From Frigoriglobus tundricola (GTDB lineage: Bacteria; Planctomycetota; Planctomycetia; Gemmatales; Gemmataceae): a DNA stretch of 64,000 nucleotides. Shown here piece by piece: positions 34,403-52,323 of this stretch (its first letter is position 1; every line of letters starts with the position of its first letter). Under the pieces are notes generated by a model. It was not told the DNA's origin. It saw only the letters and a list, made by a program, of their open reading frames with translations, and made no database searches. The stretch spans positions 558,001-622,000 of the forward strand of contig NZ_CP053452.2 of NCBI RefSeq assembly GCF_013128195.2, read 5' to 3'. The position numbers and the translations under genes were made by a program.

Positions 34403-35973
34403 CACTTCCCCCCCGTTGGAGCGGTCGCGTCCCGCAACCGCTCGAAGTTCACACGCAGCAGGTCGATTTTCTTCCGGTCGTAATCGTACGGGCTGTCGAA
34501 CCGTTGGCCCTTAAGGGTCGGGAACCGGAGCCCGGCACGCAGCGATTCCAGTTCGGCGCCCCATTTCGGCGCTGGTGCCGCCCGATCGCCCGCCCGGATC
34601 GCGTGGAACATCGCCCCGCACCCGAGGTAATTGGCGGCCAGGGCGTCCCAGTCGTGGTCCGCGAGTTTTCCGTCCTTTGCGATCGCGTTGGCGGCGATGG
34701 CGTGGGCCAGGCGCTCGGCCGTGCCCGCCGCCACCGGGCGGAGCTTGGTCTTGTCGTCTTCCGCGGCTTGCATGGCGACGAGCCACGCGTCGAGTTCCGC
34801 GAGCGCCTTCGTCGCCTGTTCCTTCACGGCGGTCGCCGGCGGGGCGGCCCTCTCGCCCATCAACTTCCGGAGCTTGTGGACTTCGGTCAAGTTGGGAGAG
34901 CTTAAACCCGGATACGCGGCGCCGCAATACTCCGCCGCAATGCCGGCGGCCGTGTTCGACCACACCTCCCACCCCGGTACGCCCGGTCGGCGCGTCTGAA
35001 ACGCGTCGCTCACCCCGCCCCGAACGTCCCCCTCTCCGACCTTTTGATGGCAGGAGTAGCAACTGTAGCCCGCGAACTCCGGCCAGACGCCCGCGGGCTT
35101 GTCGGCCTGCTCGGCGCGTGCGCGGAGGAGGTCCGTCGCACTCCGGAGAGCCGCGGCCTGCCCGACCACCCAGGCGCGGACCTCAAAATCCGGTTGTGGG
35201 GTCTTTTCGACCCAGTGCTTGCGGTAATCGGGTTGGAAATGGAACCGGGCCGATTCGAACGCCAGACGCGGGTGGCCGGCGGCGTACAGGTCGTGGTTCA
35301 CGTCACGGTCCGAGTCGCCCGAGTGGCACTCGGCACAGTTGAGCGTCCGGGCGACGAGGTTACCAGCCGGAACGAACCCGTACTTGTCCCACTTCTCGCG
35401 GTTGGAGAGCCCCTTCCACTCCGAGGTGTAGTGCAGCCCGATCCACTTCTCCCCCGGGCCGTGACACGCACCGCACCCGACGCCCTCGGACAGAATCTGG
35501 TCGCGGGTCGCGGGCTCGCTCGCACCATCGACCGCGTGACACTTCAAGCAGAGCGTGGCTTGGTGCGCCGGTACCTTACTGTTGCCCTTGGCGTCCTTGA
35601 GGTCCAGGTACTTGGCCATCTGGACGGAGACGGAGTTGAAGAGGACGCTGTAAGCCCGTGTGTGCGGGTCGCTCGGCCCCGCGGGGAACGCCTGCGGTGC
35701 CCAGGTGCTGTGTTCGCTCCCGACCTTCCCGACCTGTCCGCCGCCGTGGCACGAGGCCGCGGAACACGAGGTGGCGGGCCGTTGCTCGAACGGCGCTCGC
35801 CCCACACCATAGGGGCTTTGTGGCGGAGAATCAGACGACGACGGAAGTTCGGGGAGGCGGTCCGGCGGTTGGGAATTGGCGGAGCTGAAAACGCTCGCCA
35901 CGGCCCCCCCGCTCAAAACGGCGATGATGAAGACGGGACGCACGGTACAGCTCGGGGGGATGGTCCGTCGCAT
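34402..35973 (-). CDS. Exported 5-heme cytochrome c with CX4CH first site
   Basis: The 523-residue protein. A hydrophobic segment at about 12-30 directs export, followed by a Ser/Pro-rich linker. The first heme site is CSAASCH near residue 70, a CX4CH spacing. The rest are CLKCH, CGACH, CAECH and CYSCH. The motif order, the DPHTRAYSVL and YAAGHPRLAFE segments and total length match the next gene upstream, so the two are paralogues from a tandem duplication. CX4CH sites attach heme in some multiheme proteins and may need a dedicated lyase. The stop overlaps the next start by one base. Related to octaheme/c554 families only in a general way. Confidence 0.92.
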   Translation of the reverse strand: MRRTIPPSCTVRPVFIIAVLSGGAVASVFSSANSQPPDRLPELPSSSDSPPQSPYGVGRAPFEQRPATSCSAASCHGGGQVGKVGSEHSTWAPQAFPAGPSDPHTRAYSVLFNSVSVQMAKYLDLKDAKGNSKVPAHQATLCLKCHAVDGASEPATRDQILSEGVGCGACHGPGEKWIGLHYTSEWKGLSNREKWDKYGFVPAGNLVARTLNCAECHSGDSDRDVNHDLYAAGHPRLAFESARFHFQPDYRKHWVEKTPQPDFEVRAWVVGQAAALRSATDLLRARAEQADKPAGVWPEFAGYSCYSCHQKVGEGDVRGGVSDAFQTRRPGVPGWEVWSNTAAGIAAEYCGAAYPGLSSPNLTEVHKLRKLMGERAAPPATAVKEQATKALAELDAWLVAMQAAEDDKTKLRPVAAGTAERLAHAIAANAIAKDGKLADHDWDALAANYLGCGAMFHAIRAGDRAAPAPKWGAELESLRAGLRFPTLKGQRFDSPYDYDRKKIDLLRVNFERLRDATAPTGGK

Positions 35974-36083: not shown

Positions 36084-37595
36084 TCAGGGACGGTTGTTCT
36101 GAACGTTCCGAATCGTACCGACCGTGGCGTGGAACGTGTTCCACCGGTCGCGTTCGTCGTGGCGCCTCGCCGCTTCGTCGGTGAGCGGAACGCGCGGGGG
36201 AACGAACGCCGCGAACGCGGTCCGGAACTGCGCGGTCAGGGTTTCGGGTTTCGCACTTCGCGAGCGTTCAAGAGCCGCCATCCCGAATAACAGTTGTGAA
36301 CCACTGTCCCACTCCGGGACGGTCAGGTTCGCGGTATCGAGCCATTTACGCGAGGCGCGGACGGCATCCGCGTCCGCGAACCCGACCAGTCGTTTTCGCT
36401 CGACCGCCAATCGCGTTGCGGATTCTATGGCAACCGACCCCACCGATCGCGACGGCAGCGGCACCTCGATCTTCTCCAGCAAATCCTTCAAGGGCGACCC
36501 CGCTCGTGTCGGCGCCGCGAGGGCCGCCGCCGGAGTCAGCGGCCACACCGTTTGCCACTGCGGCGCCCCGAGCCGGCGCCCGTGCAAGTGGGCCGCGTCC
36601 TTCCGCCACTGCGCGTCGGGCTCCTCGTCCGAAGCGGCCCGCAGGTTGTGGTGGCAGGAAGCACAGTTGTACTCCGCGAACTCCGGCCACGGCGTTCGTG
36701 GGTCGCTGGCGGAACGCTCGGCGCGACTCGCGAGCAACTTGCACGCCGCCTCGGCGTGCGCCGTCCGCCCGACCAGCCACGCCTTCGCCGGGTTGAGCGA
36801 CCGGGCCGGCGGGACCGATTCGCTCGAGGTTCTGTCCTTCTCCTGCCAGTGGGGCGGCAACCGGCGGAGGTATTCGGCGAAGTCGAAGTTCAGCCGCGGG
36901 TGCCCGGCCGCGATCATGTCGTGGTTCATGTCGCGCACCGGCAGACCGCCCGCGGCCGGCGCCCCGACGTGGCACCCGAGGCAGTTCACGGCCCGCTCGC
37001 CGAGATCGTAGAGCGGCACCATACCGGTTGCCGCATAGGCTTCGGCCCGGTTGCCCCTCCAGTTCGTGTGTTCGCGGACCCACCCGCTCGCGTTCCCGTG
37101 GCACGCCTCGCAACTGACCCCCTCGCGCCGCTTGTTCAGCACGTGCGGATCGGTGGTCGGCCCCGGTTCGGCGAGCGCCGGGTTGGTGTGGCACGCGAGG
37201 CACCGCGCGTCCTCGGTCGCGGGCCGCCCGCCCGCGTACCGCGCCATGATGTGCCCCGCGGTCACTTTCACCGCGCGGTGCGGGTGATCCGTGAGCAAGC
37301 TGTACGCGGCACTGTGCGGGTCGGCCGCCACCCAAACGCTCCCCGCCCCCTGCCAGGTGGTCGAATCAAGGGTGCCGCCGAGCGCCTTCTCGGCCGGGCC
37401 GCCGTGACACGCCGCGGCGAGGCAGCCGGACAACCCGATGGCCTTCCCCTTCCCTTCGCCCGAGTGAGACGGTTCGGGGGGGACGTAAGCCGCGATCGTC
37501 ACCTCGGGGCGCCGCGACGCACCCGCGGTCGCCCAAACGGCAAAGGCTCCGACAACAACGACTGCGACCAGAACTGTACGTGCCGCGAGATTCAT
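36084..37595 (-). CDS. Exported 5-heme cytochrome c with CX4CH first site, paralogue
   Basis: The 503-residue protein has a clear N-terminal hydrophobic segment (VLVAVVVVGAFAVWATAGAS). Heme sites in order: CLAAACH near residue 57 (CX4CH), CLACH, CEACH, CLGCH and CASCHH. DPHSAAYSLL, NHDMIAAGHPRLNFDF and WPEFAEYNCASCHH align with the neighbouring gene downstream, supporting duplication. The C-terminal half is helical, with no further heme site. It is the first cytochrome of the leftward unit, 110 bases before the next. The upstream AT-rich segment is shared with the rightward genes, so both arms may be co-controlled. Confidence 0.92.
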   Translation of the reverse strand: MNLAARTVLVAVVVVGAFAVWATAGASRRPEVTIAAYVPPEPSHSGEGKGKAIGLSGCLAAACHGGPAEKALGGTLDSTTWQGAGSVWVAADPHSAAYSLLTDHPHRAVKVTAGHIMARYAGGRPATEDARCLACHTNPALAEPGPTTDPHVLNKRREGVSCEACHGNASGWVREHTNWRGNRAEAYAATGMVPLYDLGERAVNCLGCHVGAPAAGGLPVRDMNHDMIAAGHPRLNFDFAEYLRRLPPHWQEKDRTSSESVPPARSLNPAKAWLVGRTAHAEAACKLLASRAERSASDPRTPWPEFAEYNCASCHHNLRAASDEEPDAQWRKDAAHLHGRRLGAPQWQTVWPLTPAAALAAPTRAGSPLKDLLEKIEVPLPSRSVGSVAIESATRLAVERKRLVGFADADAVRASRKWLDTANLTVPEWDSGSQLLFGMAALERSRSAKPETLTAQFRTAFAAFVPPRVPLTDEAARRHDERDRWNTFHATVGTIRNVQNNRP

Positions 37596-38010: not shown

Positions 38011-38720
38011 AATTGCGTTATCCTCTGCTCAACGGCCTTGCGCCGCCCCACTCCGATACGCTTCGCCCCACGCCCGGCGTGTCGGCCCTTCCACGTTCGA
38101 CACTCTTTTATCCGGGTGCCCTGATGCTGCACGCTCTCCCTTGTCGGCTGATGTGGTTCGGTCTCCTTATGGCCCTGTTCTCGCTCGTCCCTATGACCGG
38201 TGCGCTCAACGCGCAACCGGTCGGGCGCTATCGCCTGGCGCCGGGCGGGTTCACCTATGTGCCGCCGGGCGGCCTGACCCCGGTGAACGGTATCCAAGGC
38301 ATTCAAGGTAACCAGGGGAATCAAGGTGTTCAGGGTGGTCAGGGCCTCCAGGGGGGCGGGCTCCAGGGGGGCGGGCTCCAGGGAGGCGGGCTCCAGGGAG
38401 GCGGCGGTCTTCAGGGCTTGGGTGGCGGCGGCATCCGCGGTGGCGGATTCGGCGGGGGCGGCATCCAGGGAGGCGGTGGGTTCGGAGGTGGCGGCATCCA
38501 GGGTGGCGGGTTCGCTGGGGGCGGGTTGGGTGGAGGAGGTTTTGGTGGCGGCGGGTCGGGAGGCGGTGGATTCGGAGGGCACGGCATTATCCGTTTCCAG
38601 TCCATCGGGAGCTATTTAGGTGTTGGGGGTGGCGGGCTTGGCGGTGGGGGCATCCGGGGCGGATTCGGAGGAGGAGGATTCGGAGGAGGAGGATTCGGAG
38701 GAGGAGGATTCGGAGGAGGC

Positions 38721-38823
38721 ATTCGCGGCGGATTCGGAGGCGGGTTCCAAGGTGGATTTGGGGGCGGGGGATCGGCGGGATCGGCGGGTTCCAAGGCGGA
38801 TTCGGAGGCGGGTTCGGGGGCGG
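38721..38823 (+). repeat. 103-bp direct repeat, first copy
   Basis: Identical to 38879-38981, with an offset of 158 bases (not a multiple of three), inside the glycine-rich gene. Confidence 0.9.
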
Positions 38824-38878
38824 AGGGTTCCAAGGCGGATTCGGAGGTGGCGGATTCGGAGGAGGATTCGGAGGCGGT

Positions 38879-38981
38879 ATTCGCGGCGGATTCGGAGGCG
38901 GGTTCCAAGGTGGATTTGGGGGCGGGGGATCGGCGGGATCGGCGGGTTCCAAGGCGGATTCGGAGGCGGGTTCGGGGGCGG
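38879..38981 (+). repeat. 103-bp direct repeat, second copy
   Basis: Identical to 38721-38823. The shared G-run carries the same frame break in both copies. Confidence 0.9.
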
Positions 38982-39305
38982 CGGCAAACAATTCGGGTTC
39001 AGCGGCGGGACCGGTTACTAAAAGTCGAGTCCAAACACTCGAAAGCCGCTGGAAACAAGCGCCGGCGGCTTTTGCTTGCCCGGTGCCCTGCGGGAATCGA
39101 CCCGTTCCACACCACCCGCTCCTCCAGTCTCGAAAGCCCCTCCGCGCGGTTTTTCGAGTACCGTCTTTTGCCCTCCCCCGTCGAACCCGACCATTCGGGA
39201 CGTGTAACTGCCACACTTCCTGCACCAATTCGTTGACCGCCTCGTCTCCGTAAGTTACTATCCTGAACCGGACTCAGCCATCCAGTAACGCAACCGGAGC
39301 CGCGA

Positions 39306-40187
39306 GTGCTTGTCGGCAAGACGAACTCGGTGCGCGGACGCATCCTCTCCATCCTGTTCGCCACGGCCGGCGTCACACTCGCCGGGGTCGCGCTCGCTGC
39401 CGCCGGGGCCGCCGTCGGCGCCTGGGCGTGGCCGCCGCAGCCGAGCAGCCCGCTCGGGGTGTTCTGCGGCGTCGTCGGCGGGCTGATCGTGATCTTCGAG
39501 ATGCTCATCCTGCCGCGGAAGTGGTTCCGCGGCCAGCGCCTCGGCCGCACCCGCACCTGGCTCCAGTGGCACGTCTGGATGGGCCTCATCTGCCTGCCCG
39601 TCATCCTGGTCCACGCCGGGTTCGGGTTCGGCGGGCCGCTCACCACCGTCACCCTCGTGCTGTTTCTGCTCGTTACCGCCAGCGGCGTTTGGGGGCTGAT
39701 CATGCAGCAGTGGCTCCCCCAGAAGTTGCTCGAAGAGATCCCCGGCGAAACCATCGCCTCGCAGATCGATCGCATGGGGGACTACCACGCCGACGAGGCC
39801 GCCCGGCTCGTATCGGCGCTGGTCACGGTGCCGCCGGAAGCGGAATCGGCCGAACCGGTCGTCAGCGGCCCGCTCGCGGCCGAGCTGGTCGCGTTCCGCG
39901 ACGACCTGTTGCTGCCGTACCTCCACTCCGGCGACCGGTCGAACTCGCCGCTCGCCACCCCCACCGATGCCGAACAGAGGTTCGCCCGGCTCCGCGAAGC
40001 GGTTCCGGGCGCGGCCCAACAGACCCTGGACCGCCTCCAAGAACTCGCCGAGCTGCGCCGCCGCTGGGACACGCAGACGCGGATCAACTTCTGGCTCCAC
40101 AACTGGCTCCTGCTCCACCTGCCGCTGTCGGTGGGGATGTCATCGCTGATGGTCCTGCACGCGGTCCGCGCGATGAAGTTCTGGTGA
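39306..40187 (+). CDS. Membrane protein with two His-x13-His pairs, di-heme cytochrome b-like
   Basis: The 293-residue protein has about five hydrophobic segments: about 13-42, 50-69, 86-106, 112-132 and 262-286. A soluble loop of about 120 residues lies between the last two. In segment three His89 and His103, and in the last segment His271 and His285, are each 14 positions apart. That is the spacing used in di-heme b-type membrane subunits where two helices bracket two stacked hemes. This is my inference, and the family was not recognised by name. It could carry electrons across the membrane between the cytoplasmic NuoEF-like/Fe-S proteins and the exported multiheme proteins encoded beside it. 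The GTG start at 39306 has GGAG six bases upstream. Confidence 0.78.
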   Translation: MLVGKTNSVRGRILSILFATAGVTLAGVALAAAGAAVGAWAWPPQPSSPLGVFCGVVGGLIVIFEMLILPRKWFRGQRLGRTRTWLQWHVWMGLICLPVILVHAGFGFGGPLTTVTLVLFLLVTASGVWGLIMQQWLPQKLLEEIPGETIASQIDRMGDYHADEAARLVSALVTVPPEAESAEPVVSGPLAAELVAFRDDLLLPYLHSGDRSNSPLATPTDAEQRFARLREAVPGAAQQTLDRLQELAELRRRWDTQTRINFWLHNWLLLHLPLSVGMSSLMVLHAVRAMKFW

Positions 40188-40315
40188 GACGGAAGGCCCC
40201 GGGGTTGGAATTCCGGGCTCCTGCCGGTGACCCTTCCTGGGTCGATGTCGTACGGAGGCCGGGGGCTGAAGCCCTCGGCCCGAATACAGGGTTTGGTCCT
40301 GACGCCTGGTGAGTG

Positions 40316-41936
40316 ATGCCACGTTCTCCGAGTCGTGACCTGTCGGACCGGTACATCGGGAAGCGCGGGTACTTTCGTAACCCGGACGCGTTCCGCCGCG
40401 GCCGCTACGCGCTGGCCGTGGTCGTGTTCCTCGGTGCGGTCGGGTGGGCCGCGGTCGATGTGCTCAACCCGACACGAGCGGCTTACGGCCACTCGCACGG
40501 GCCGCTCGCCGGCCCGCACGCCGCGTTCGACGACAACTGTGCCGCGTGCCACGTGGGACAGTCGCTCGACTTCAACCCGCTGGCCGTGTTCCGCGCCCGC
40601 GACCGCTGGCACGATCTCTCGTGCGGCAAGTGCCACGCCGGGCAGGACGATATCGGCTTCGCGCACCACGACTCCGGCACCAACGCGGCGCAAGAGTTTC
40701 ACAAGCGCTGCTCGAACTGTCACCACGACCACAACGGCCGGCAGAACTCGCTCGTCCGCTTGTCCGATGCCGATTGCACCCGGTGCCACTCCGATCTCGG
40801 CAAGTGGCACGAACCGAGTAAGTCGAGGTCCGGCACCCCCTACCAGAACACGATCACGAGTTTCGCGACCAACCACCCGGAGTTCCGCGCCCTCGACATT
40901 TCGAGCAAGCCGCGCACGCTCACGTTCAGCCACGCCGTTCACATGAATCCGGGTCAGGCGTACACGCCCGGCGGCAAAGAAGCGATGACACTCGCGCGCG
41001 TGACCGAGCTGTCCGGCAGAGCCGCAGCGGATCGCTATCGAAAGCCGGGCCAGGACGACAACTCCCCCGTCCTTCTCGATTGCGCTTCGTGTCACCAGCT
41101 CGACCCGGGCGCCGGCACCCCGACCTTCGACAAGCTGAAGACGGCACTCGACTCGTTCGGCGAACCGACCCGTGCCCTGCTCCCCCCGCGGCCCGAGGGC
41201 GCCTACTTCCTGCCCCTCAACTACGAAGTGAGCTGCCGCGCCTGTCACCCGCTGACGGCGCCCGAGGGGGTGAGTGCGGGTAAGGTCGTTCCGCGGTTCA
41301 ACGTTGCGCACCGCCGGCAGCCCACCGAACTGGCCGCCGAGTTGAAGGCCGGCTACGTGAAGGGGATGGTGGGTACCAACCACCCGGGCGCTCGCGGCCC
41401 CGCCCGAGCCCGGCGGCAAGCTCGACGCCCGGCCCGCCGCCGGCACCCCGACAATCGGGGCCGAGGCCGACCGCCTCGCGCGGGCCGCCGAGCGGCAGCT
41501 CCTCTCCGGCGCGGCCGGGTGCGCCAAGTGCCACGTGGTCGCCGCACCGGCCGCGGCCGACACGTTCCGCATCGAACCGGTGCCCGATCGGACGGTCTGG
41601 TTCACGCACGCGAAGTTCAACCACTCCGCGCACCGCGGCACGACCTGCGCCACGTGCCACCCCGGCACCGGGGCGGCGACCATCGCGCCGGCCGACGCGA
41701 ACAAGCCCGAGCCGACGCAGATCCTGGGCGTCGAGTCGTGCCGCGCCTGTCACTCGCCGGCCGGCACGAAGGTGACGCTGCCGGACGGCTCCAAGGTCGC
41801 CGGCGGCGGCGTGCGGGCGGCGTGTACCGACTGCCACCGCTACCACCACAACGACACGCCGCTTCAGGGCCGCGGGTCGCCGGCCCGGTTCCCGAAAGAC
41901 CCGCGGGGCCTGGCCGACTGGCTCAAGGGGAAGTGA
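40316..41936 (+). pseudogene. Exported 10-heme cytochrome c, single frame break
   Basis: The start is ATG at 40316, with one membrane segment at about 36-56 (YALAVVVFLGAVGWAAVDVL). First frame: CAACH, CGKCH, CSNCHH, CTRCH, CASCH and CRACH. Near 41360-41400 the frame moves by +1. In the new frame CAKCH, CATCH, CRACH and CTDCH follow, and the protein ends DWLKGK at 41936. Together that is ten heme sites over about 540 residues. Without correction, the first frame runs to 41953 through Arg/Gly-rich nonsense and the last four hemes are lost. One G fewer in AAGGGGATGG near 41362 would restore continuity. The spacing with neighbours (about 128 and 106 bases) suggests one operon. Either a sequencing indel or a broken gene. 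Confidence 0.8.
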
Positions 41937-42042
41937 CGAAAAGTGGGCAGTAGACCGTTGGCAGAACAGAGCGATGGGGGCAGGTGGGTGAAGGGTCTGG
42001 ACGGCAACTTTCGGCCCACAGCCCACTAATGAAGGGTTCGCG

Positions 42043-44100
42043 ATGATCGTTCAGCGGCTGCGCGAGATCCAGAACCGGTTCGGCTTCCTCCCCGACGACG
42101 AGCTGAAGAAGCTCGCGCGCGACAGCGGCGTGCCGCTGTACCGCATCGAGGAGGTGTCGAGCTTCTTCCCGGCGTTCATCCTCGAGCGGACCAACCCGCC
42201 GAAGATCGAAATGCGCGTCTGCCGCGACATGACGTGCCACCTGCGCGGCGCCGCGGAGCTGCTCGATACCAAGACCGGCCTCCCGGTCCTCGCCCGGGAG
42301 CTGACCGAACGGACCGGTGAGGCGGTGTGCGTCGAGGGCGTGTCGTGCCTGGGCCGGTGCGACCGCGCCCCGGCCGTGTGGGTCGAGAAGCGGCCCATGC
42401 CCGAGGGCGAACACGCCTGGGTGTACGCGAACCGCAGCCGCGAAGAACTGGAAGACGTCCTCCGCAAGCTCGCGGCCGGCGAGGACCCGCCGCCGGCCGA
42501 CCCGGACGCAGAGTACACCCCGCACACCAACGCGAACCGCACCTACTCGTCGCCGCCGGTGAAGGACAGCGACCACCCCGCGCTGCCCGCCGCCGGCTGG
42601 TCGCTCGACGTGTACGGCCGGCAGCGGTGGCCCCGGGACTACCGGGCCGTCAAGCGGTTCACCGACTACCTCAAGAACCTGTCGCGCCCGCTCCTGTCCC
42701 CGCCCCGCGAGATGGGCGGCAAGGACCTGGAAAATTACGTCCAGAAGTACCACCCGCTGCTGTGGGAGCTGAAGACCGCGAACCTCCTCGGGATGGGCGG
42801 GGCCGGCGCGCCCGCGTACCAGAAGTGGCTCGACGTGTGGCGCGAGCCGGGGCCGGAAAAGTACATCGTCTGCAACGGCGACGAGAGCGAACCGGGCACC
42901 TTCAAGGACCGCGAGCTGCTCCTGCGCATGCCCCACCTCGTCGTGGAGGGCGTGATCCTCGCCGGGCTGATGACCGGGGCGGCGGCCGGCTACATCTACA
43001 TCCGGCACGAGTACCACGAGCAGATCCACGCCGTTCGCGAAGAGATTATGAGGGCCAACCGGCTCAACGCCTGCGGCGACGACATCTACGAGTCCGGGCG
43101 GAACTTCCAGGTGGAAGTGTTCGAGAGCCCCGGCGGGTACATCTGCGGCGAACAGTCCGCCCTCATCGAAGCGATGGAGGACCGCCGCGGCCAGCCGCGC
43201 AACCGCCCGCCCGAACTGACCACCAACGGGCTCCGCGACCGCCCGACGGTCGTCAACAACGTCGAGACGCTCGCCTGGGCGCCCGGCATCGTGCTGTTCG
43301 GCGGCGACAAGTACGAACTGGGCGGCTGGCGCCTGCCGCCGGCGCCCCCGGCCGCGCAGGTGAAGATGGGCGGGCGGCGGCTGTTCTCCATCAGCGGCGA
43401 CGTGGCGCGGCCCGGCGTCTACGAGGTCGCCATCGGGTTACCGCTCCGCGACCTGCTCACCGATCCCAAGTACTGCGGCGGCATCATCAACGGCCCGCTC
43501 CGCGCGGTCGCGACCTCCGGCCCGTCCGGCGGGCTCCTGCCGGCCAAGATCCCGATCGACCCGAAGCTCGACGAGAAGAAGCGGGCCGACGTGGTGAAGC
43601 GCATCAGCGACCGGTCGCCGACCGACGCGGCGTACATGGAGTGGTTCCTCAGGACGCACGTCCCGATGGGGGCGACGCACCTCGACCTGCTCGACGTGCC
43701 GCTCGACCTGACCTTCTACCGCAACATGGAATCGGCGTTCCGGCTGCCGGTGGAACCGATGCTCGGCGCCGCCCTCGTCGTCTACGCGGGCGACGTGGAC
43801 ATTCTGGACCAGGCCGTGAACTTCACGGAGTTCTACCGCAACGAGTCGTGCGGCAAGTGCGTCCCGTGCCGGCTCGGCTCGCAGAAATTGGTACAGATCG
43901 GCAACGAGTTGCTGACGCGCCGCGACGCGGGCGAGCCGCCGGTCGGGGCCGAGGCCGCCGCGGCGAAGAGCGACATCGAGCAGATCACCCGGACGCTCAA
44001 GCTGACCTCGATCTGCGGCCTCGGGTACGTGGCCCCGTTCCCACTGGCGACCGCCGTGGCGTACTTCGGGGCCGATTTCCAGAAGAAGCCGGGAACGTAA
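42043..44100 (+). CDS. Fused NuoE-NuoF-type NADH dehydrogenase flavoprotein subunit
   Basis: The 685-residue cytoplasmic protein. Residues 1-150 are a NuoE-type thioredoxin-like [2Fe-2S] domain with Cys60, Cys65, Cys102 and Cys106. After a linker, the NuoF part binds FMN and NADH (LLGMGGAGAPAYQKW, CNGDESEPGTFKDREL, YICGEQSALIEAMEDRRGQP, RPTVVNNVETLAW). It has an SLBB domain (SGDVARPGVYEVAIGLPLRD) and the [4Fe-4S] site ESCGKCVPCRLG with a fourth Cys in SICGLGY. All cluster ligands are intact. The fused layout resembles HoxF and the flavin subunits of NAD-linked formate dehydrogenases and hydrogenases more than complex I. It is encoded between multiheme and Fe-S genes and far from the nuoJKLM operon, so it likely serves a separate NADH-oxidising module. 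Start: ATG at 42043 with AAGGG upstream. Confidence 0.94.
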   Translation: MIVQRLREIQNRFGFLPDDELKKLARDSGVPLYRIEEVSSFFPAFILERTNPPKIEMRVCRDMTCHLRGAAELLDTKTGLPVLARELTERTGEAVCVEGVSCLGRCDRAPAVWVEKRPMPEGEHAWVYANRSREELEDVLRKLAAGEDPPPADPDAEYTPHTNANRTYSSPPVKDSDHPALPAAGWSLDVYGRQRWPRDYRAVKRFTDYLKNLSRPLLSPPREMGGKDLENYVQKYHPLLWELKTANLLGMGGAGAPAYQKWLDVWREPGPEKYIVCNGDESEPGTFKDRELLLRMPHLVVEGVILAGLMTGAAAGYIYIRHEYHEQIHAVREEIMRANRLNACGDDIYESGRNFQVEVFESPGGYICGEQSALIEAMEDRRGQPRNRPPELTTNGLRDRPTVVNNVETLAWAPGIVLFGGDKYELGGWRLPPAPPAAQVKMGGRRLFSISGDVARPGVYEVAIGLPLRDLLTDPKYCGGIINGPLRAVATSGPSGGLLPAKIPIDPKLDEKKRADVVKRISDRSPTDAAYMEWFLRTHVPMGATHLDLLDVPLDLTFYRNMESAFRLPVEPMLGAALVVYAGDVDILDQAVNFTEFYRNESCGKCVPCRLGSQKLVQIGNELLTRRDAGEPPVGAEAAAAKSDIEQITRTLKLTSICGLGYVAPFPLATAVAYFGADFQKKPGT

Positions 44101-44198
44101 GGACACGACCCACAACGGCAAGCACAGACGTCAGTCTCCAGCCCTTCGGGCCGGAGACACAAACGCACAGAACCGTTCCGCCCGAGTGAGTTCGCACC

Positions 44199-46934
44199 AT
44201 GCCCGACTACGCCGACCCGGACATCTCGCTCGGCCGCGAAGAGGAGTCGCTCTTCGCGCGCGACGAAAACGACGTGCTGGTGCGCCGCGAGAAGGAGACC
44301 CGCGACCGCTTCGACCAGAAGGTCAAGGTGGTCATCGACGGGTACGAGGTGGAGGTGCCCCGCGCCGTCCCCAAGACCGACTCGCAGGGCAACCGGCTCC
44401 GCGACGCCGACGGCGAGCTGATCCCGCGGACCACCACCATCCACGACGCCGCGGCGATGCTCGTGTCCGCCGGCGTCTGGACCGACGAGGAACTGAAGAC
44501 CCGCATCCCCGTGCTGTGCCACCAGCGCCACGTCAACCCGGTGGCCGTCTGCCGCATGTGCTCGGTCCACATCTCCAGCATGAAGCGCGGCAAGCTGACC
44601 CCGAGCCGGAAGCTGGTGCCCGCGTGCCAGCACAAGGTGGACACCGGCATGGTGGTCACCACCCGCGCCGGCATCGACGGGTACAACCCCAAAACCAAGG
44701 ACCAGGCCGACCAGAAGGTGATCGACCGGGCGTCGGCCGATGTGAACGACTCGGTGCGGATGCTGGCCGAGTTCCTCATGGCCGACCACTGCCACGTGCC
44801 GATCGGTACGGCCAAGCGGTACGACGACGAACTGAGTACCGTCGCGGCGTCCCTCAATGTGACCGCGGAATCCGTCCGCGGGAGCTTGCGCCGCGACCCG
44901 GCGCTGCCGAGCCGGAACGAGCCCCACGAGATCAGCCCCAAGTCGCGCCGCGTCCCGCTCCCGCTGGCCCAGATCGCCGTGGAGGAGGAGCGGCGGCCCG
45001 ATGCCAACCGGGCCTGGAAGGAGTGGAACACGGAGGTGAGCGACGAGTTCCCGTACTCGTCCCGCACCGTGGTCGTCGACCACGACCGGTGCATCCTGTG
45101 CGACCGGTGCGTGCGGGCCTGCTCGGAGGTGAAACCGTTCAAGGTGATCGGCCACACCGGCAAGGGGTACGGCACCCGCATCAGCTTCGACCTCGACGCG
45201 CTCATGGGCGAGTCGAGCTGCGTGCAGTGCGGCGAGTGCATGAACAGTTGCCCGACCGGGGCGCTGTCGCTGCGGCGCCGGGTGCAGCCGCGGGCGTGGG
45301 CGGACTCGCCGGAGCAGATCCCGGTGAACCCGAACACCTCGTTCCCGGCGGCCTCGGGGTTCCTCACCGCCGACGAGATGCGGGACATCTGGCTCGTGTA
45401 CGAGAGCCCGACGCGCGGCTCCCGGGTCGTGTTCCCGTTCCGCTCGATCCCGTACTCGTACCTGAAGTGGAACGAGGGCTCGGTGCGGAAGTGGGAGATC
45501 GAACCGGGCGAGCGCAAGCTCCTGTGCCGCGAGGGCGAGTACGGGAGCACGGCGTTCCTGCTCCAGGGCGGCGGCACGTTCGAGATCTACTCCCGCGGGG
45601 CGGCGCCGCCCCGCAAGAAGGGCTTCCTCGAGGGCCTGTTCGGCCGCTCCCGCAAGCCGCCGGCCGATTCCGACTACGGCCCCATCCTCCGCGTCGCGAC
45701 CGGCGACGAACTCGTGATGGGCGAGATGACCTGCCTGACGCAGCGGCCGCGCACCGCGACCGTGGTCGGCGTCGCGGAACTCGACAACCAGCGGATCGAC
45801 CTGACCTACGACGAGAACGGGTGGCCGAAGGCGGTGCGGGACCCCGCCGCCCGCGGTCCGGTGGTCGTGTACGAGATCACCCGCAACCTGCTGGACATGA
45901 TGCAGCGGGCGGAATCGGCCCGCGACGACCTCGAGGAGATGTACACGTTCCGCGCGATCCAGACGAGCGTGACCCACGGCCGGCTGTTCGCCCCATTGGA
46001 CCGCGAGGACCGCGAGCGGGCGGTCACGTTCCTGCTCACCGAGGGCGTCGAGTTCCGCCGCGTGGCGGCCGGGGAGACGATCGTCGCGGAGGGCGACACG
46101 GCGGCCGCGTTCTACGTCATCCGGCTCGGCACCGTGCGGGTCTTCACCACCGCCGGCGGCGGCGAACAGGTGCTCCGGTTGCTGTCCGCCGGCGACTACT
46201 TCGGTGAAGCGGCGCTGCTGGCGGACCGGCCGGGCGTGCGCACCGCGACGGTCGCGGCCCTCGACCCGGTCGAACTGGTCCGCGTGACCGGCCCCGTGTT
46301 TCGCAAAATGTGCGAACGGTTCCCCGCACTGCGCGAAGGGCTGAAGGGGGCCACGCGGGCGGCGGTCCCGGGCGTGAAGGGGACCCCGCCGCCCGGCATC
46401 CTCCGCGAGTACGTGCGGCAGGGGCTGTACCAGGGGCAGCGCCTCCTGGTCCTCGACCTCAAGACCTGCACGCGCTGCGACGAGTGTACCCGCGCCTGCG
46501 CCGACTCGCACGACGGGAACGCCCGGTTGTTGCGCGAGGGGCTCCGGTTCGGCGACTTCCTGGTCGCGACGTCGTGCCGCTCGTGCCACAAGCCGTACTG
46601 CATGGACGGCTGCCCGGTGGACGCGATCCACCGCCACGGCAACCACCTGGAGGTGGTGATCGAGAACCACTGCATCGGGTGCGGGCTGTGCGAGCGGAAC
46701 TGCCCCTACGGGGCGATCGACATGGTGCCGCGCAGCACCCCGAACCCGGCCGCGGCCGCGGTTGCGGGCGGGAACCCGAACATGACGGCCGCCCGGCGCG
46801 CGGTGAACTGCGACCTGTGCGGCGGCGACGAGCCGTTCTGCGTCCAGGCGTGTCCGCACGAGGCGGCGTACCGCAAGGCGGGTCCGGACCTCATGGACGA
46901 GGTGCTCTCGCGGCTCAGCCACAAGCCGAAGTAG
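44199..46934 (+). CDS. Fe-S protein with two cyclic-nucleotide-binding domains between NuoG-like and DmsB-like modules
   Basis: The 911-residue soluble protein. About 40-180: NuoG-like [2Fe-2S] domain (LCHQRHVNPVAVCRMCSVHI, then PACQ). The usual His-Cys-liganded cluster is reduced to MADHCHVPI and probably lost. About 285-350: two [4Fe-4S] sites (CILCDRCVRAC, CVQCGECMNSCP). About 420-530 and 610-700: two cyclic-nucleotide-binding domains, each with a phosphate-binding cassette (MGEMTCLTQRPRTATVV and FGEAALLADRPGVRTATV). About 750-905: four [4Fe-4S] sites as in DmsB/HycB (CTRCDECTRAC, CRSCHKPYCMDGCP, CIGCGLCERNCP, CDLCGGDEPFCVQACP). That predicts seven clusters. The gene follows nuoEF by 99 bases. 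It likely takes electrons from the flavoprotein, with cyclic nucleotide acting as a control ligand. I know no described family with this order. Confidence 0.9.
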   Translation: MPDYADPDISLGREEESLFARDENDVLVRREKETRDRFDQKVKVVIDGYEVEVPRAVPKTDSQGNRLRDADGELIPRTTTIHDAAAMLVSAGVWTDEELKTRIPVLCHQRHVNPVAVCRMCSVHISSMKRGKLTPSRKLVPACQHKVDTGMVVTTRAGIDGYNPKTKDQADQKVIDRASADVNDSVRMLAEFLMADHCHVPIGTAKRYDDELSTVAASLNVTAESVRGSLRRDPALPSRNEPHEISPKSRRVPLPLAQIAVEEERRPDANRAWKEWNTEVSDEFPYSSRTVVVDHDRCILCDRCVRACSEVKPFKVIGHTGKGYGTRISFDLDALMGESSCVQCGECMNSCPTGALSLRRRVQPRAWADSPEQIPVNPNTSFPAASGFLTADEMRDIWLVYESPTRGSRVVFPFRSIPYSYLKWNEGSVRKWEIEPGERKLLCREGEYGSTAFLLQGGGTFEIYSRGAAPPRKKGFLEGLFGRSRKPPADSDYGPILRVATGDELVMGEMTCLTQRPRTATVVGVAELDNQRIDLTYDENGWPKAVRDPAARGPVVVYEITRNLLDMMQRAESARDDLEEMYTFRAIQTSVTHGRLFAPLDREDRERAVTFLLTEGVEFRRVAAGETIVAEGDTAAAFYVIRLGTVRVFTTAGGGEQVLRLLSAGDYFGEAALLADRPGVRTATVAALDPVELVRVTGPVFRKMCERFPALREGLKGATRAAVPGVKGTPPPGILREYVRQGLYQGQRLLVLDLKTCTRCDECTRACADSHDGNARLLREGLRFGDFLVATSCRSCHKPYCMDGCPVDAIHRHGNHLEVVIENHCIGCGLCERNCPYGAIDMVPRSTPNPAAAAVAGGNPNMTAARRAVNCDLCGGDEPFCVQACPHEAAYRKAGPDLMDEVLSRLSHKPK

Positions 46935-47085: not shown

Positions 47086-48966
47086 CTACCACGTCCAATG
47101 AATGCGGTAGACGTGGTTCGCTTGCGGGTTCGGCACTTCCCAGTACAGCCAGGATTTGTCTTCGGCCGGGAACGCGATGAGCGGACCGGTGTACGGCCCG
47201 AAGTCGTGCGCCGGCGGGGCGTGACGGAGTTGGTACTCTCCGAGCGGACGCTCGTTCGGAAACAGGATCAGGATCGAACTCTTCGTCGCGCCGTCAATAC
47301 CGACCATGTCGAGCCGCTGATCCTCCGCGCGCGGGAACGCGTTCCAGAGCGTGCTCTGGAACCGCAGCGTGAACTCTTGATCGACCGGCACGTCGCGGAC
47401 ATCGAACACCAGGTGCCGGACCTTTGCCGCCGCCGTGTCGTGGGCCAGCACCCGGGCCTTGTCCGGGTTCGGGCACAGCGCACGGGGCACTACCTCGCGG
47501 TCCGTCGACCGGGTCTCGATCCGCAGTTCGTCGACCGGTGCGATCTTAGCCATCTCGCGGCGCACGAGGAACACAGCAGGACTTCCGGGTTGTGCGGCCG
47601 GTTGGGTGTTCGGGCGCCACGCCCGGAGGTCCACAATCTGAACGTCCTGGTCCACGCGGAACGCGGACCGATCGATTCGGGGCAACTCGGGCACCCGCGT
47701 GACCGCGTGTGGCACCTCCCGATCAAGGGAGGGCCGGACCCACCGGAGGGCGGTCACCTGGTTGGCGATATCATCGCGAGTCTCTGCCGTGAGCGGGTCA
47801 ACCTGTTCGGGGGGCATCTTGTGACCGCGGAGCCAGTCGAGCGGGGACGGGATCAGCCACGCGGTGACGACGAGGGCCATGAGCGCACACACCACCCCCG
47901 CCGGGCGCCACCAGCGGCGGGCGAGCTTTTGCCCCGCGTACCATGTGCCGGTCCGCGGGCCGCGGATCGCCTCACCGTTCAGGAACCGGCGCAGGTCATC
48001 GGCCAGCGCGGCGGCGGAGGCGTACCGCTCGGCCGGTTCCTTCACCAGGCACTTGCGGCAGATGAGATCGAGTTCGCGGGGCACGTCGCGGATGCGCCGG
48101 GTGACCGGTTCCGGTTCGTCGCTCACCACCTGCCGGATGACCGACCACGCGTCCGACCCGCGAAACGGCACGGACCCGCACAGGCACTCGTACAGTACCA
48201 CGCCGAGCGCGTACACATCGGCGGCCGGGCCGATGTTCTTCGTATCGCCCCGGGCCTGCTCCGGAGCCATGTACGCCGGCGTACCCATCACCGCACCGGT
48301 CTGGGTCAGTTCGGCCCCGCCGCGTTTCGCCAGCCCGAAGTCCGTCACCTTGGGCTCCCCCCAGGTGCCCGACGAATCGCGCGGCGCGTCGAGCAGGACG
48401 TTGTGCGGCTTGAGGTCGCGGTGGACGATGCCGCGGTCGTGTGCGGCCTGCACCCCGCCGGCGATTTTGATGAGGAGTTCGGCGGCGGCTCGGGGCGCCA
48501 GCCTCCCCGCCGCCCGGAGGTACTGTGACAGGCTGCCGCCCTCCAGACACTCCATCGCCATGAACGGGTGCCCGTCCACCTCTCCGCTGTCGAACACTTG
48601 AATCACGTTCGGGTGCTTGATCTCGGCAACCGCCTGTGCTTCCGCGACGAACCGGGCGAGTTCACGCGGGTCGGCGTGGCGTGCGCCGAGAACCATCTTG
48701 AGCGCAACGATTCGGTTCAGTCTCAGGTGTCGGGCCTTGTAAACGACCCCCATTCCGCCCCGCCCGAGTTCGCCGAGGATCTGGTAGCCCGGAACGACCA
48801 CCCGTCCCAAAGCGCCCGCCGCTCCCCGAGCCGCGTCGGGATTTTGAACGAGCGTCTCAGTATAGCCTCCGGGTATCGAACTGCCGATCGCGGTGTCTGG
48901 AGGCGGGCCTGATGAAATGGACGCCGGAGGTTCCGACGGGGGCGAGAGTTGCGTTTCGTCAATCAT
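47086..48966 (-). CDS. Receptor-type Ser/Thr protein kinase
   Basis: The 626-residue protein. The cytoplasmic kinase domain spans about 60-335: glycine loop LGRGGMGVVYKARH, Lys90 in VALKMV, catalytic HRDLKPHN, DFGLAKRGG, APEQARG and the C-lobe Arg region. A single transmembrane helix follows at about 350-370 (PAGVVCALMALVVTAWLI). The outer part (about 375-626) is beta-rich, unlike known sensors. This is the PknB-like type greatly expanded in planctomycetes. The start at 48966 (MIDETQ) is chosen since the earlier part of the same frame is Arg-rich and overlaps the next gene. The N-terminal 55 residues are Pro/Ser-rich. It converges with the Fe-S/cyclic-nucleotide gene, 151 bases apart. Confidence 0.93.
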   Translation of the reverse strand: MIDETQLSPPSEPPASISSGPPPDTAIGSSIPGGYTETLVQNPDAARGAAGALGRVVVPGYQILGELGRGGMGVVYKARHLRLNRIVALKMVLGARHADPRELARFVAEAQAVAEIKHPNVIQVFDSGEVDGHPFMAMECLEGGSLSQYLRAAGRLAPRAAAELLIKIAGGVQAAHDRGIVHRDLKPHNVLLDAPRDSSGTWGEPKVTDFGLAKRGGAELTQTGAVMGTPAYMAPEQARGDTKNIGPAADVYALGVVLYECLCGSVPFRGSDAWSVIRQVVSDEPEPVTRRIRDVPRELDLICRKCLVKEPAERYASAAALADDLRRFLNGEAIRGPRTGTWYAGQKLARRWWRPAGVVCALMALVVTAWLIPSPLDWLRGHKMPPEQVDPLTAETRDDIANQVTALRWVRPSLDREVPHAVTRVPELPRIDRSAFRVDQDVQIVDLRAWRPNTQPAAQPGSPAVFLVRREMAKIAPVDELRIETRSTDREVVPRALCPNPDKARVLAHDTAAAKVRHLVFDVRDVPVDQEFTLRFQSTLWNAFPRAEDQRLDMVGIDGATKSSILILFPNERPLGEYQLRHAPPAHDFGPYTGPLIAFPAEDKSWLYWEVPNPQANHVYRIHWTW

Positions 48967-49123
48967 AACAACAGCCGGCGCGGACACGAGGGGGCCGTTA
49001 ACAGCTCCCACTGTCATAAACATACCACATATCAATTTCGGACGTTGTAAAAGCGGGGTACGGAAGAGGGACCGTTTGCTTTTCGGGGGGATAAGGTTTG
49101 GGTGCCGCCATGAGATTGTGCTG

Positions 49124-49690
49124 TCACTCGTGGCCGCCTTCTTTGCCGGCCCCGGCTTCGGCCCCGTGTCCGCCTTCGGACCCGTGCCCACCGCCCTCTT
49201 TGCCGTGTAGCCGTTCCTCGCGGTCCTCGCGCGCCTCCAGTACGGCCTTTCGCAACGGACGAATCGCAAACGGGTCCGGGAGCCGGTGCCCCTCGGCGCG
49301 GTAGGCCAGGTAGATCGGGCGACCGTGCGACGGATCAGCGGACGGGGCGAGGAAGACCCGCCCGAGGTGCAAGCGCACACCGCTGTAGTCAGTGCCGAAC
49401 GTCCCGTCGTAAACCGGTCCGGTCGCCGATCCCGGCCCGCGTGCGACGAGGCTGTTGTTCCGGATACTTCCGCCCCCGATGTACCCGCCGTTGTCGTACC
49501 GCGTGACCCCGGGAATCGCCATCTGCGACACGCTCTGCGGATACCCGGCCCGCGCCGCCGAGTGCTCGACGGGCCGGCGCGGCAGCGGCGTGCGCTCCGC
49601 GATCCGCTGGAGCCACGGCCGATCGTCGGCGCGTCCCGTGGGCAACGCACAAGCGAACGCAAGGCCCACGAGGGCGATTAAGCAGCGCAT
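49124..49690 (-). CDS. Small secreted protein, His/Gly/Glu-rich tail, unknown
   Basis: The 188-residue protein has a signal peptide (LIALVGLAFACALPTGRADD). The middle shows beta-strand-like Gly/Asn segments (YDNGGYIGGGSIRNNSLVARG, DYSGVRLHLGRVFLAP). It ends in a helix followed by a repetitive tail of Gly, His, Glu and Lys that may bind metal. Not recognised. The start at 49690 is chosen for the signal peptide. The frame is open 37 codons earlier but there overlaps the promoter area of the converging gene set. It is divergent in no sense from its neighbours: all three from 47 to 52 kb read leftward. Confidence 0.7.
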   Translation of the reverse strand: MRCLIALVGLAFACALPTGRADDRPWLQRIAERTPLPRRPVEHSAARAGYPQSVSQMAIPGVTRYDNGGYIGGGSIRNNSLVARGPGSATGPVYDGTFGTDYSGVRLHLGRVFLAPSADPSHGRPIYLAYRAEGHRLPDPFAIRPLRKAVLEAREDREERLHGKEGGGHGSEGGHGAEAGAGKEGGHE

Positions 49691-52128: not shown

Positions 52129-52323
52129 GGCCGTGCCCGCGAACAACGGAATCGTCTCTGTCCTCTCAATCGGCCGCCCGGCTCTCTTATCTACACAGAT
52201 TTACCAGCATTCTCGATACAACCGGAAGAATCCTCATGACCGGCACATTCGGAACCGATGTGTAAGGGCGAGGCACCGCCCGGGGCGTGTCCCTCGGTTC
52301 GTGCGACGTTTGGGGGAACGGAC

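Follow-up and report, generated by a model that had tools for sequence, protein, structure and literature searches.

A conserved gene set of Planctomycetota and Verrucomicrobiota with the parts of a candidate NADH-fed electron line to exported multiheme cytochromes under cyclic-nucleotide control

RESULTS

Genes of the system in Frigoriglobus tundricola

We analysed a window of 64,000 nt of Frigoriglobus tundricola (GCF_013128195.2, contig NZ_CP053452.2, positions 558,001–622,000 of the forward strand). The conserved parts of the system span window positions 27054–54495 and are as follows (window coordinates, strand, description).

27054–31121, +, LVIVD-repeat multiheme cytochrome, 1355 aa; nine CXXCH and one CX4CH; secretion-signal-like N terminus
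32645–34405, −, third of three c554-like multiheme proteins; five CXXCH; PF13435
34402–35973, −, second c554-like multiheme protein; four CXXCH and a CX4CH-like motif
36084–37595, −, first c554-like multiheme protein; four CXXCH and a CX4CH-like motif
39306–40187, +, membrane protein, probable di-heme cytochrome b; H89, H103, H271, H285; model pLDDT 90.7
39570–39614, +, its first His pair (H89 codon 39570–39572, H103 codon 39612–39614)
40116–40160, +, its second His pair (H271 codon 40116–40118, H285 codon 40158–40160)
40313–41936, +, membrane-anchored decaheme cytochrome gene in two frames; six CXXCH before the break, four after
42043–44100, +, NuoE–NuoF fusion (NuoEF): [2Fe-2S], FMN/NADH site, SLBB, N3-type [4Fe-4S]; PF01257, PF01512, SLBB, PF10589
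44199–46934, +, Fe-S protein (relay): input clusters, two cyclic-nucleotide-binding domains (cNBDs), output clusters
44517–45251, +, relay input side, residues 107–351, Cys for one [2Fe-2S] and two [4Fe-4S]; 12 Cys in 42/42
45714–45770, +, phosphate-binding motif of the first cNBD, residues 506–524; G508, E509, R518 in 42/42
46056–46319, +, second cNBD, residues 620–707; PF00027, 5e-23; G669 in 42/42, E670 in 41/42, R681 in 41/42
46467–46853, +, relay output side, residues 757–885, Cys for four [4Fe-4S]; 16 Cys in at least 41/42
49798–52146, −, secreted HbpS-like protein (heme-binding type), associated; PF03928; homologues in 16 loci
52258–54495, +, porin-like protein with aromatic C terminus; no Pfam match

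The initial annotation had proposed a run of five genes confined to 38124–46934 and leading from NADH to exported hemes. These bounds proved too narrow, as conserved parts reach 27054 on one side and 54495 on the other. That description had overlooked the LVIVD cytochrome and the three c554-like proteins, as well as the HbpS-like protein, the porin-like protein and the core that lacks NuoEF. The membrane protein, the NuoE–NuoF fusion and the Fe-S protein of the proposed run hold, whereas the decaheme cytochrome does not appear as an intact ORF in the window and the Gly-rich protein is no longer a member. We excluded the Gly-rich ORF, which starts at 38124, from the parts because its matches in the loci of relatives were only weak and of low complexity. 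The four central genes of the proposed path from NADH to exported hemes form a conserved unit in which every Fe-S ligand is kept. A scan for promoters and terminators yielded no useful evidence on operon structure.

Conservation and distribution of the gene set

Co-occurrence and gene order, the latter named beforehand as one point on which the proposal could fail, were both found to be conserved: the order membrane protein–decaheme–NuoEF–relay, on one strand, is kept in 27 of the 29 loci holding all four genes. Five loci (L078–L082), having partial Fe-S matches, were left out of the 49 loci before counting. The alignments comprised 30 rows for the membrane protein, 30 for the decaheme, 37 for NuoEF and 42 for the relay, with ORFs beyond the length limits excluded. 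Judged from these sequences, the set is not due to chance, because its ligands are invariant across tens of sequences in several phyla.

The gene set also occurs in Verrucomicrobiota and in one Riflebacteria genome, and the core without NuoEF is found in further Planctomycetota and is also carried by a Sphingobium plasmid. Five Verrucomicrobiota genomes have a stand-alone NuoEF–relay pair, and in 5/5 of those fetched the membrane protein and the decaheme lie adjacent to each other elsewhere. Two loci (L093 and L094) were set aside as controls that lie outside the family; in them NuoEF is placed beside Fe-S proteins while the membrane protein and the decaheme are missing from the fetched stretch. 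Cultured members include Zavarzinella formosa and Limnoglobus roseus (loci L056 and L061).

In a tree of the relay, the NuoEF-bearing type, minus L117 and L122, forms one bipartition (local support 0.981). The latter two pair with each other (1.0) and are placed elsewhere, beside the NuoEF-free L110 (0.56); a single gain of NuoEF is therefore not shown. The tree left out L098 and L096 (repeats of L056 and L054), L093, L094 and relay ORFs shorter than 450 aa; two further rows were dropped for covering too few columns, which reduced it from 93 to 91 rows.

The membrane protein and the decaheme cytochrome

In the membrane protein, the histidines lie 14 residues apart in each pair (89/103 and 271/285), and a helical domain of ∼110 aa precedes the last membrane helix. 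The conservation of these pairs had also been set in advance as decisive, and we observed all four histidines to be invariant (30/30 alignment rows and 89/89 homologues). The protein has no Pfam match and no credible sequence relative in the PDB; its Sphingobium homologue matches PF01292 below the cut-off of that model. Unlike the NapC-type quinol oxidases CymA and ImcH, it has no c-type heme motif (CXXCH). A Foldseek search with the model returned nothing at E ≤ 0.001, and the b561-like structure 4o6y aligned at Z 8.2 (132 residues, 3.7 Å), alongside unrelated helical bundles with Z values of up to 10.1. The rows of the structural alignment (VIA-align) are mixed helical bundles. From its sequence, the protein is probably a di-heme cytochrome b.

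The decaheme had been described as a 10-heme exported cytochrome. Ten CXXCH are present, but they are split between two frames in the window, six in the frame starting at 40313 and four in the other, the frame changing between 41361 and 41383, whereas the 30/30 relatives with a usable ORF have a single ORF with exactly ten CXXCH. The break may be an assembly error or a real lesion, the two being indistinguishable from these data. Ten histidines besides the ten heme motifs are kept (at least 27 of 30 rows), as expected of electron-transfer hemes with bis-His ligation. Comparison with PDB sequences gave no credible relative of the decaheme.

The Fe-S relay and its cyclic-nucleotide-binding domains

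The cysteines of the relay account for one [2Fe-2S] cluster and six of the [4Fe-4S] type, with all the ligands kept, and the protein has the two cNBDs that the initial annotation had assigned to this seven-cluster protein. Pfam sees one cNBD stretch in the window relay (620–707); it matches the PF00027 profile and has the Gly-Glu/Arg phosphate-binding motif. The first cNBD was recognised from orthologues (e.g. residues 353–456 in L062) and from its conserved phosphate-binding motif. The input part matches the Fe-S regions of HoxU, NuoG and HydA, and the output part matches the DMSO_dmsB, ArrB, FDH3_beta and HydN models. PF10588 (HisCys3-type) has no match in the window relay, where only one weakly kept cysteine (7/42) lies between C143 and C298; a weak match in L101 stays under the cut-off. 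The structural model of the relay was poor (pLDDT 67.9) and unusable.

The 12 input cysteines occur in 53/53 relays that have NuoEF close by. The 36 NuoEF-free relays lack them as a set, and the 16 output cysteines are found in 36/36 of these as well. The cNBDs could be mere structural spacers in a redox complex that do not bind cyclic nucleotides, a reading we regard as rather unlikely. It agrees with the single Pfam stretch in the window relay, with a second motif that has degenerated in roughly half of the relays without NuoEF (E670 in 17/36, R681 in 18/36) and with the F. tundricola genome, whose three cyclases all lie away from the locus. It has, however, to be set against the G-E-R of the first cNBD, kept in 53/53 NuoEF-bearing loci and in 36, 33 and 36 of the 36 NuoEF-free relays, against an enrichment of cyclases near the system genes, and against a CpdA/SpdA-like phosphodiesterase located directly downstream of the Sphingobium version.

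Of 33 genomes, 12 have a cyclase no more than 5 kb from the LVIVD gene, with 0.18 expected; for the membrane-protein gene and a limit of 10 kb, the count is 5 of 37, with 0.30 expected. Within 5 kb of the porin-like gene the enrichment was not significant (1/34). These cyclases are of class III, and one genus accounts for 10 of the 12 neighbours of the LVIVD gene. Cyclase adjacency in Verrucomicrobiota and Riflebacteria is weak evidence because these genomes have 6–25 cyclases each where counted. The conserved phosphate motifs, the nearby cyclases and the Sphingobium phosphodiesterase lend independent support to the claim of cyclic-nucleotide involvement made from the window, although no cyclase lies near the locus in F. 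tundricola itself.

The same context would also fit a redox sensor, in which the state of the periplasmic cytochromes, via the membrane protein and the relay, steers cyclic-nucleotide signalling with minor net flow. Histidine kinases with cNBDs adjoin NuoEF in L066 and L075, and cyclases lie near the genes. We nevertheless hold such a sensor to be very improbable: a complete NADH module and a seven-cluster wire with invariant ligands exceed the needs of a sensor, and cNBDs read the nucleotide and do not make it.

NAD(P)H input modules

The NuoE–NuoF fusion, proposed to bind NADH and to have all its cluster ligands, was confirmed in its Pfam domains, in every [2Fe-2S] and N3 cysteine and in the conserved FMN/NADH motifs. 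The assignment of this module to the NADH-oxidising kind is supported at the level of sequence. Pfam finds no Fer4 domain in it, so it is without the extra ferredoxin domain of the NuoF-like subunit of HydABC.

Of 40 membrane-protein neighbourhoods retrieved from other Planctomycetota, 34 lack NuoEF; because so many systems are without it, NADH is not the donor in all of them. In the Sphingobium relay, a FAD/NAD(P) oxidoreductase replaces the NuoG-like part; in L142–L145, the membrane protein has a ferredoxin–FAD/NAD(P) protein as its neighbour or fusion partner; and in L086, an NDH-2-like protein with a cNBD is the neighbour. The predicted NAD(P)H input is modular, being either NuoEF or a FAD/NAD(P) flavoprotein with no relation to it.

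Electron-transfer parts of this kind are reversible in principle and sequence does not fix the direction, so that electrons could instead enter from a donor in the periplasm or outside the cell and reduce NAD+. We consider this reverse flow improbable, as reducing NAD+ at its low potential, and against the membrane potential, requires a donor of high energy or a site of energy coupling, and the parts that were profiled included no recognisable ion-pump subunit.

Multiheme cytochromes and envelope proteins

The LVIVD cytochrome, with ten hemes, is the sole copy found in the genome and is 45–66% identical over the alignment to 10 relatives from four phyla. It matches NF040943, the model for the ExtM conduit cytochromes of Geobacter (E 4e-15), scoring 55 bits where the cut-off is 800. 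The third c554-like protein keeps its heme motifs and further histidines in 11/11 orthologues. For the porin-like protein, no Pfam or NCBIfam match and no credible PDB relative were found, so that it lacks the assignment to a known Pfam porin family that marks MtrB/PioB-type porin–cytochrome complexes. Among 59 genomes, the LVIVD cytochrome is present in 33 and the porin-like gene in 34 of the 38 with the membrane protein, and neither occurs in the 21 without it. In seven loci the porin-like gene is immediately upstream of the LVIVD gene.

These parts bear on where the line would end. It might reach no further than the periplasm or a surface enzyme, serving detoxification, heme or iron handling or a reductive surface enzyme, as opposed to the respiration of an extracellular acceptor. 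That several phyla have an HbpS-like heme-binding protein next to the system points this way, as do the core-bearing genomes without the LVIVD cytochrome (5/38) or the porin-like gene (4/38), and an enzyme could contain the LVIVD repeats and the c554-like domains; Gemmata and Sphingobium are usually cultivated aerobically. On the other hand, multiheme cytochromes lie near the membrane protein in 40/40 neighbourhoods, with heme counts reaching 26 in L144 and 37 in L145, which resembles long-range conduction, and the extra conserved histidines suggest a decaheme without an open heme site. On balance, we judge such an end to be unlikely.

DISCUSSION

With moderate confidence, we favour a line that is fed by NADH, is controlled by cyclic nucleotides and crosses the envelope, bypassing the quinone pool. 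From the parts, their ligands, the conserved order and the co-occurrence, which are read from sequence, we infer the subunit contacts, direction, acceptor, outer-membrane step and gating of this line. NADH would reduce FMN on the NuoEF subunit, and electrons would pass to the input clusters of the relay and on to its four output clusters. These would reduce the di-heme cytochrome b of the inner membrane, which would hand electrons to the membrane-anchored decaheme in the periplasm and through it to the c554-like multihemes and the LVIVD cytochrome. The latter, with the porin-like protein, would probably deliver electrons to or through the outer membrane.

The cNBDs sit between the input and output clusters in one chain, and therefore binding of cAMP or cGMP would set the contact between the two wires. 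We put forward only tentatively the fuller proposal of a cyclic-nucleotide-gated wire, in which the cNBDs open and close a quinone-free route from NADH through cytochrome b and the multihemes to the cell surface, in at least four phyla and with exchangeable NAD(P)H inputs.

NuoEFG of complex I, HoxEFU, NAD-linked formate dehydrogenase and HydABC have NuoE/NuoF folds, FMN/NADH motifs and the N3 cluster in common with the present set. In contrast to those diaphorase modules, the relay runs on into the cNBDs and a four-cluster module; of complex I, NuoE and NuoF with FMN, NADH site and N3 are found here, but not a full-length NuoG with the HisCys3 region (PF10588). The output part of the relay resembles the four-cluster subunits DmsB, HybA and FdnH that work with a membrane cytochrome b, and it likewise pairs with a His-rich membrane protein. 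It differs from them in being fused behind two cNBDs, and its membrane partner lacks Pfam matches and PDB relatives. Quinol-fed CymA, ImcH and CbcL with their porin–cytochrome conduits are similar in having an inner-membrane heme protein, periplasmic multihemes and a porin-like gene beside a multiheme cytochrome, whereas here the inner-membrane entry would be NADH-fed through Fe-S clusters. In Methanosarcina, Rnf with the multiheme cytochrome MmcA takes electrons from a low-potential cytoplasmic donor to an exported multiheme without quinone, using subunits different from the present ones.

Counts of CymA, ImcH and CbcL by phylum are given in PMC6295460. The Verrucomicrobia cluster of He et al. 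2017 (PMC5615132) combines a porin with multihemes and comes from taxa also found here (Opitutus GAS368, Udaeobacter); its cytochromes are eight-heme and periplasmic, and the terms NADH and Fe-S are absent from the main text of that paper. The available portions of PMC5615132, PMC6295460, PMC10632474 and PMC12758564 do not describe the gene set, nor does the literature searched, most subscription journals and preprints lying outside that search.

If experiments bear it out, the system would represent a new kind of line for electron export, one that can be switched. Left uncontrolled, such a line would drain NADH by a route that circumvents the proton pumps, which may be why the relay carries cNBDs. 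Extracellular electron transfer is little studied in Planctomycetota and Verrucomicrobiota. The cultured Z. formosa or L. roseus, or the Sphingobium plasmid, make the system testable. If true, the proposal would give testable functions to hypothetical proteins, namely the membrane protein, the porin-like protein and the LVIVD cytochrome, and would provide these two phyla with a quinone-free, respiratory-type route from NADH to exported multihemes under second-messenger control.

A four-gene core conserved in order

The core of the system consists of four consecutive genes on the forward strand of the window (39306-46934):

39306-40187, +, membrane protein, probable di-heme cytochrome b
40313-41936, +, membrane-anchored ten-heme cytochrome (decaheme)
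42043-44100, +, NuoE-NuoF fusion (NuoEF)
44199-46934, +, Fe-S protein of 911 aa (the relay), with NADH-side input clusters, two cyclic-nucleotide-binding domains (cNBDs) and a membrane-side part of four output clusters

The genome is of 9.86 Mb, and its close relatives include Gemmata and other Gemmataceae. One scan of named genomes returned 49 loci, 44 of them with real relay relatives, belonging to Gemmataceae-type Planctomycetota, Verrucomicrobiota (17, assigned by name or placement) and Riflebacteria (one). Among these 44, NuoEF was observed at 40, the decaheme at 31 (one cut by a contig end) and the membrane protein at 29, many of the absences being on short contigs. The expected co-occurrence and gene order of the core were borne out: at 27 of the 29 loci holding all four genes, these run membrane protein, decaheme, NuoEF, relay along a single strand. 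The exceptions are L059, where the membrane protein and decaheme lie on the strand opposite to NuoEF and the relay, and the Riflebacteria locus L071 (decaheme, two c554-like genes, NuoEF, relay, membrane protein).

NuoEF and the relay stand alone at five Verrucomicrobiota loci; the membrane protein of these genomes is elsewhere, adjoining a decaheme in all five fetched stretches. It was found in seven of eight genomes searched; the eighth, that of L073 (a locus that includes a decaheme end at a contig edge), had none. Matches to it occur in 83 of 294 other Planctomycetota genomes at E<=1e-5, some partial only, and more rarely in Verrucomicrobiota (12/194).

The annotated ten-heme cytochrome has its ten CXXCH motifs in the window, but not in one frame: six lie in one and four in another, with the break between 41361 and 41383. 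As the decaheme is a single ORF with ten CXXCH in all 30 relatives with a usable ORF, we attribute the break either to an assembly error or to a recently acquired lesion. The initial annotation also counted a Gly-rich protein as a member. This tandem-repeat ORF (38013-39236, out-of-frame end) was set aside, as relatives have no orthologue at the corresponding place. The bounds of that annotation, 38124-46934, do enclose the four core genes, but outer parts extend beyond them, from 27054 to 54495. A Ser/Thr protein kinase (47086-49662, -) adjoins the relay, and at several loci of the same genus a similar kinase comes after the relay; a GAF-PAS sigma-54-dependent activator lies at 62016-63914 (-).

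Cofactor ligands

All 42 rows of the relay alignment have the 12 input Cys and 12 of the output Cys; the last four output Cys are found in 41/42. All eight cluster Cys of NuoEF are conserved (37/37 rows), and so, as had been expected, are the two His pairs of the membrane protein, H89/H103 and H271/H285 (30/30); these His are also invariant in 89 more varied sequences, Sphingobium included. The positive stretch following the second helix and the helices of the predicted model suggest that H89/H271 lie towards the cytoplasmic side and H103/H285 towards the periplasmic side, and that the helical domain 145-260 is on the inside. Each of ten decaheme His beyond the heme motifs is kept by 27 or more of the 30 rows, which fits hemes of the bis-His type.

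Modular electron input

We fetched 40 neighbourhoods around the membrane protein from other Planctomycetota. A matching multiheme cytochrome was present in all 40, the relay in 33 and NuoEF in only six. The NuoEF-free relays are without the NuoG-like input part and keep all 16 output Cys (36/36), so the presence of input clusters is tied to that of NuoEF (53/53). There are alternative inputs. The relay encoded by the Sphingobium plasmid pMSHV is fused to a FAD/NAD(P) oxidoreductase. A ferredoxin-FAD/NAD(P) protein adjoins the membrane protein in L142-L144 and forms one ORF with it in L145, and an NDH-2-like flavoprotein fused to a cNBD (L086:11595-13370) is divergent from a NuoEF-free relay. 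The cytochromes that go with the membrane-protein homologues of L142-L145 have 20-26 hemes, and neighbouring proteins have 13-37.

Outer parts

One arm of the Sphingobium plasmid encodes a c554-like protein (four CXXCH), an HbpS-like protein, a porin-like protein and an LVIVD-repeat multiheme cytochrome; the divergent arm encodes the relay, membrane protein, decaheme and a CpdA/SpdA-like phosphodiesterase. Relatives of every part are present in the window except the phosphodiesterase, for which none was found at E<=1e-3. The outer parts are:

27054-31121, ten-heme LVIVD cytochrome, for which no second copy was found in the genome
32645-37595, c554-like genes
49798-52146, HbpS-like gene
52258-54495, porin-like gene

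Every window ORF of >=100 aa with >=2 CXXCH belongs to this set or the core. A terminal aromatic residue (F, Y, W) is a mark of outer-membrane barrels, and the porin-like protein ends in one in 17/17 sequences with an intact end. Its gene is directly upstream of the LVIVD gene at seven loci (L067, L109, L114, L118, L119, L120 and Sphingobium). The Sphingobium herbicidovorans core (L160 and L163) resides on a large plasmid, pMSHV, typed conjugative; relay matches occur in 12 Sphingobium plasmid records, one neighbourhood of which was examined.

Of 59 genomes, 38 have the membrane protein (G016 via a weak partial match only), 33 the LVIVD cytochrome and 34 the porin-like gene, and the 21 genomes that lack the membrane protein lack the latter two as well. 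With the window's genus left aside, the LVIVD cytochrome was found in 15/19 genomes with the membrane protein versus 0/21 without (Fisher 1e-7), and the porin-like gene in 16/19 versus 0/21 (Fisher 1.5e-8), both with relatedness ignored.

Cyclic-nucleotide domains and cyclases

Two cNBDs had been assigned to the relay, and their phosphate motif, Gly-Glu-Arg, is indeed kept in 42/42 rows for the first and at least 41/42 for the second. In NuoEF-free relays the first is retained (G 36/36, E 33/36, R 36/36) and the second often degraded (E 17/36, R 18/36).

Class III cyclases lie in the fetched stretches of 8/44 relay loci and 6/40 membrane-protein neighbourhoods (several were Pfam-checked; the matches at L115 and L128 are weaker), as well as at L086, L087 and L101. 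Of 33 genomes, 12 have a cyclase no more than 5 kb from the LVIVD gene (0.18 expected; ten of the 12 belong to a single genus). For the membrane-protein gene, the count at up to 10 kb is 5/37 (0.30 expected, P 1.7e-5), and for the porin-like gene at up to 5 kb it is 1/34 (P 0.15). In the window's genome, all three cyclases lie away from the locus. At two Verrucomicrobiota loci, a cNBD histidine kinase immediately precedes NuoEF (L066:6299-7753, L075:6650-7753). A FecR-like protein and an unassigned one separate the relay from a CHASE2 cyclase (L062:12482-15590), an arrangement conserved in five Verrucomicrobiota loci.

Proposed electron route

As the most likely working mode we propose a route from NADH to the outer membrane, for which the sequences establish the parts, their order, ligands and co-occurrence, and for which we infer the subunit contacts, direction, acceptor, outer-membrane passage and cNBD gating. 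NADH would reduce FMN, and electrons would pass through the relay's input clusters to its four output clusters and on to the two b hemes. From there, they would reach the decaheme and then the c554-like proteins and the LVIVD cytochrome, which would take them as far as the outer membrane or across it. Wherever a relay has an input part, its cNBDs lie between the two cluster groups, a location from which they could make or break contact between input and output clusters.

The system would work like extracellular electron transfer chains, except that its entry is an NADH dehydrogenase module. Membership tests assigned it neither to complex I, HydABC or CymA/ImcH nor to known porin-cytochrome families. 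We found no description of this gene set in the open-access literature; the nearest published is a Verrucomicrobia porin-multiheme cluster (PMC5615132). We file the system as a variant of trans-envelope electron transfer, in which the gated relay, if true, would be a new kind.
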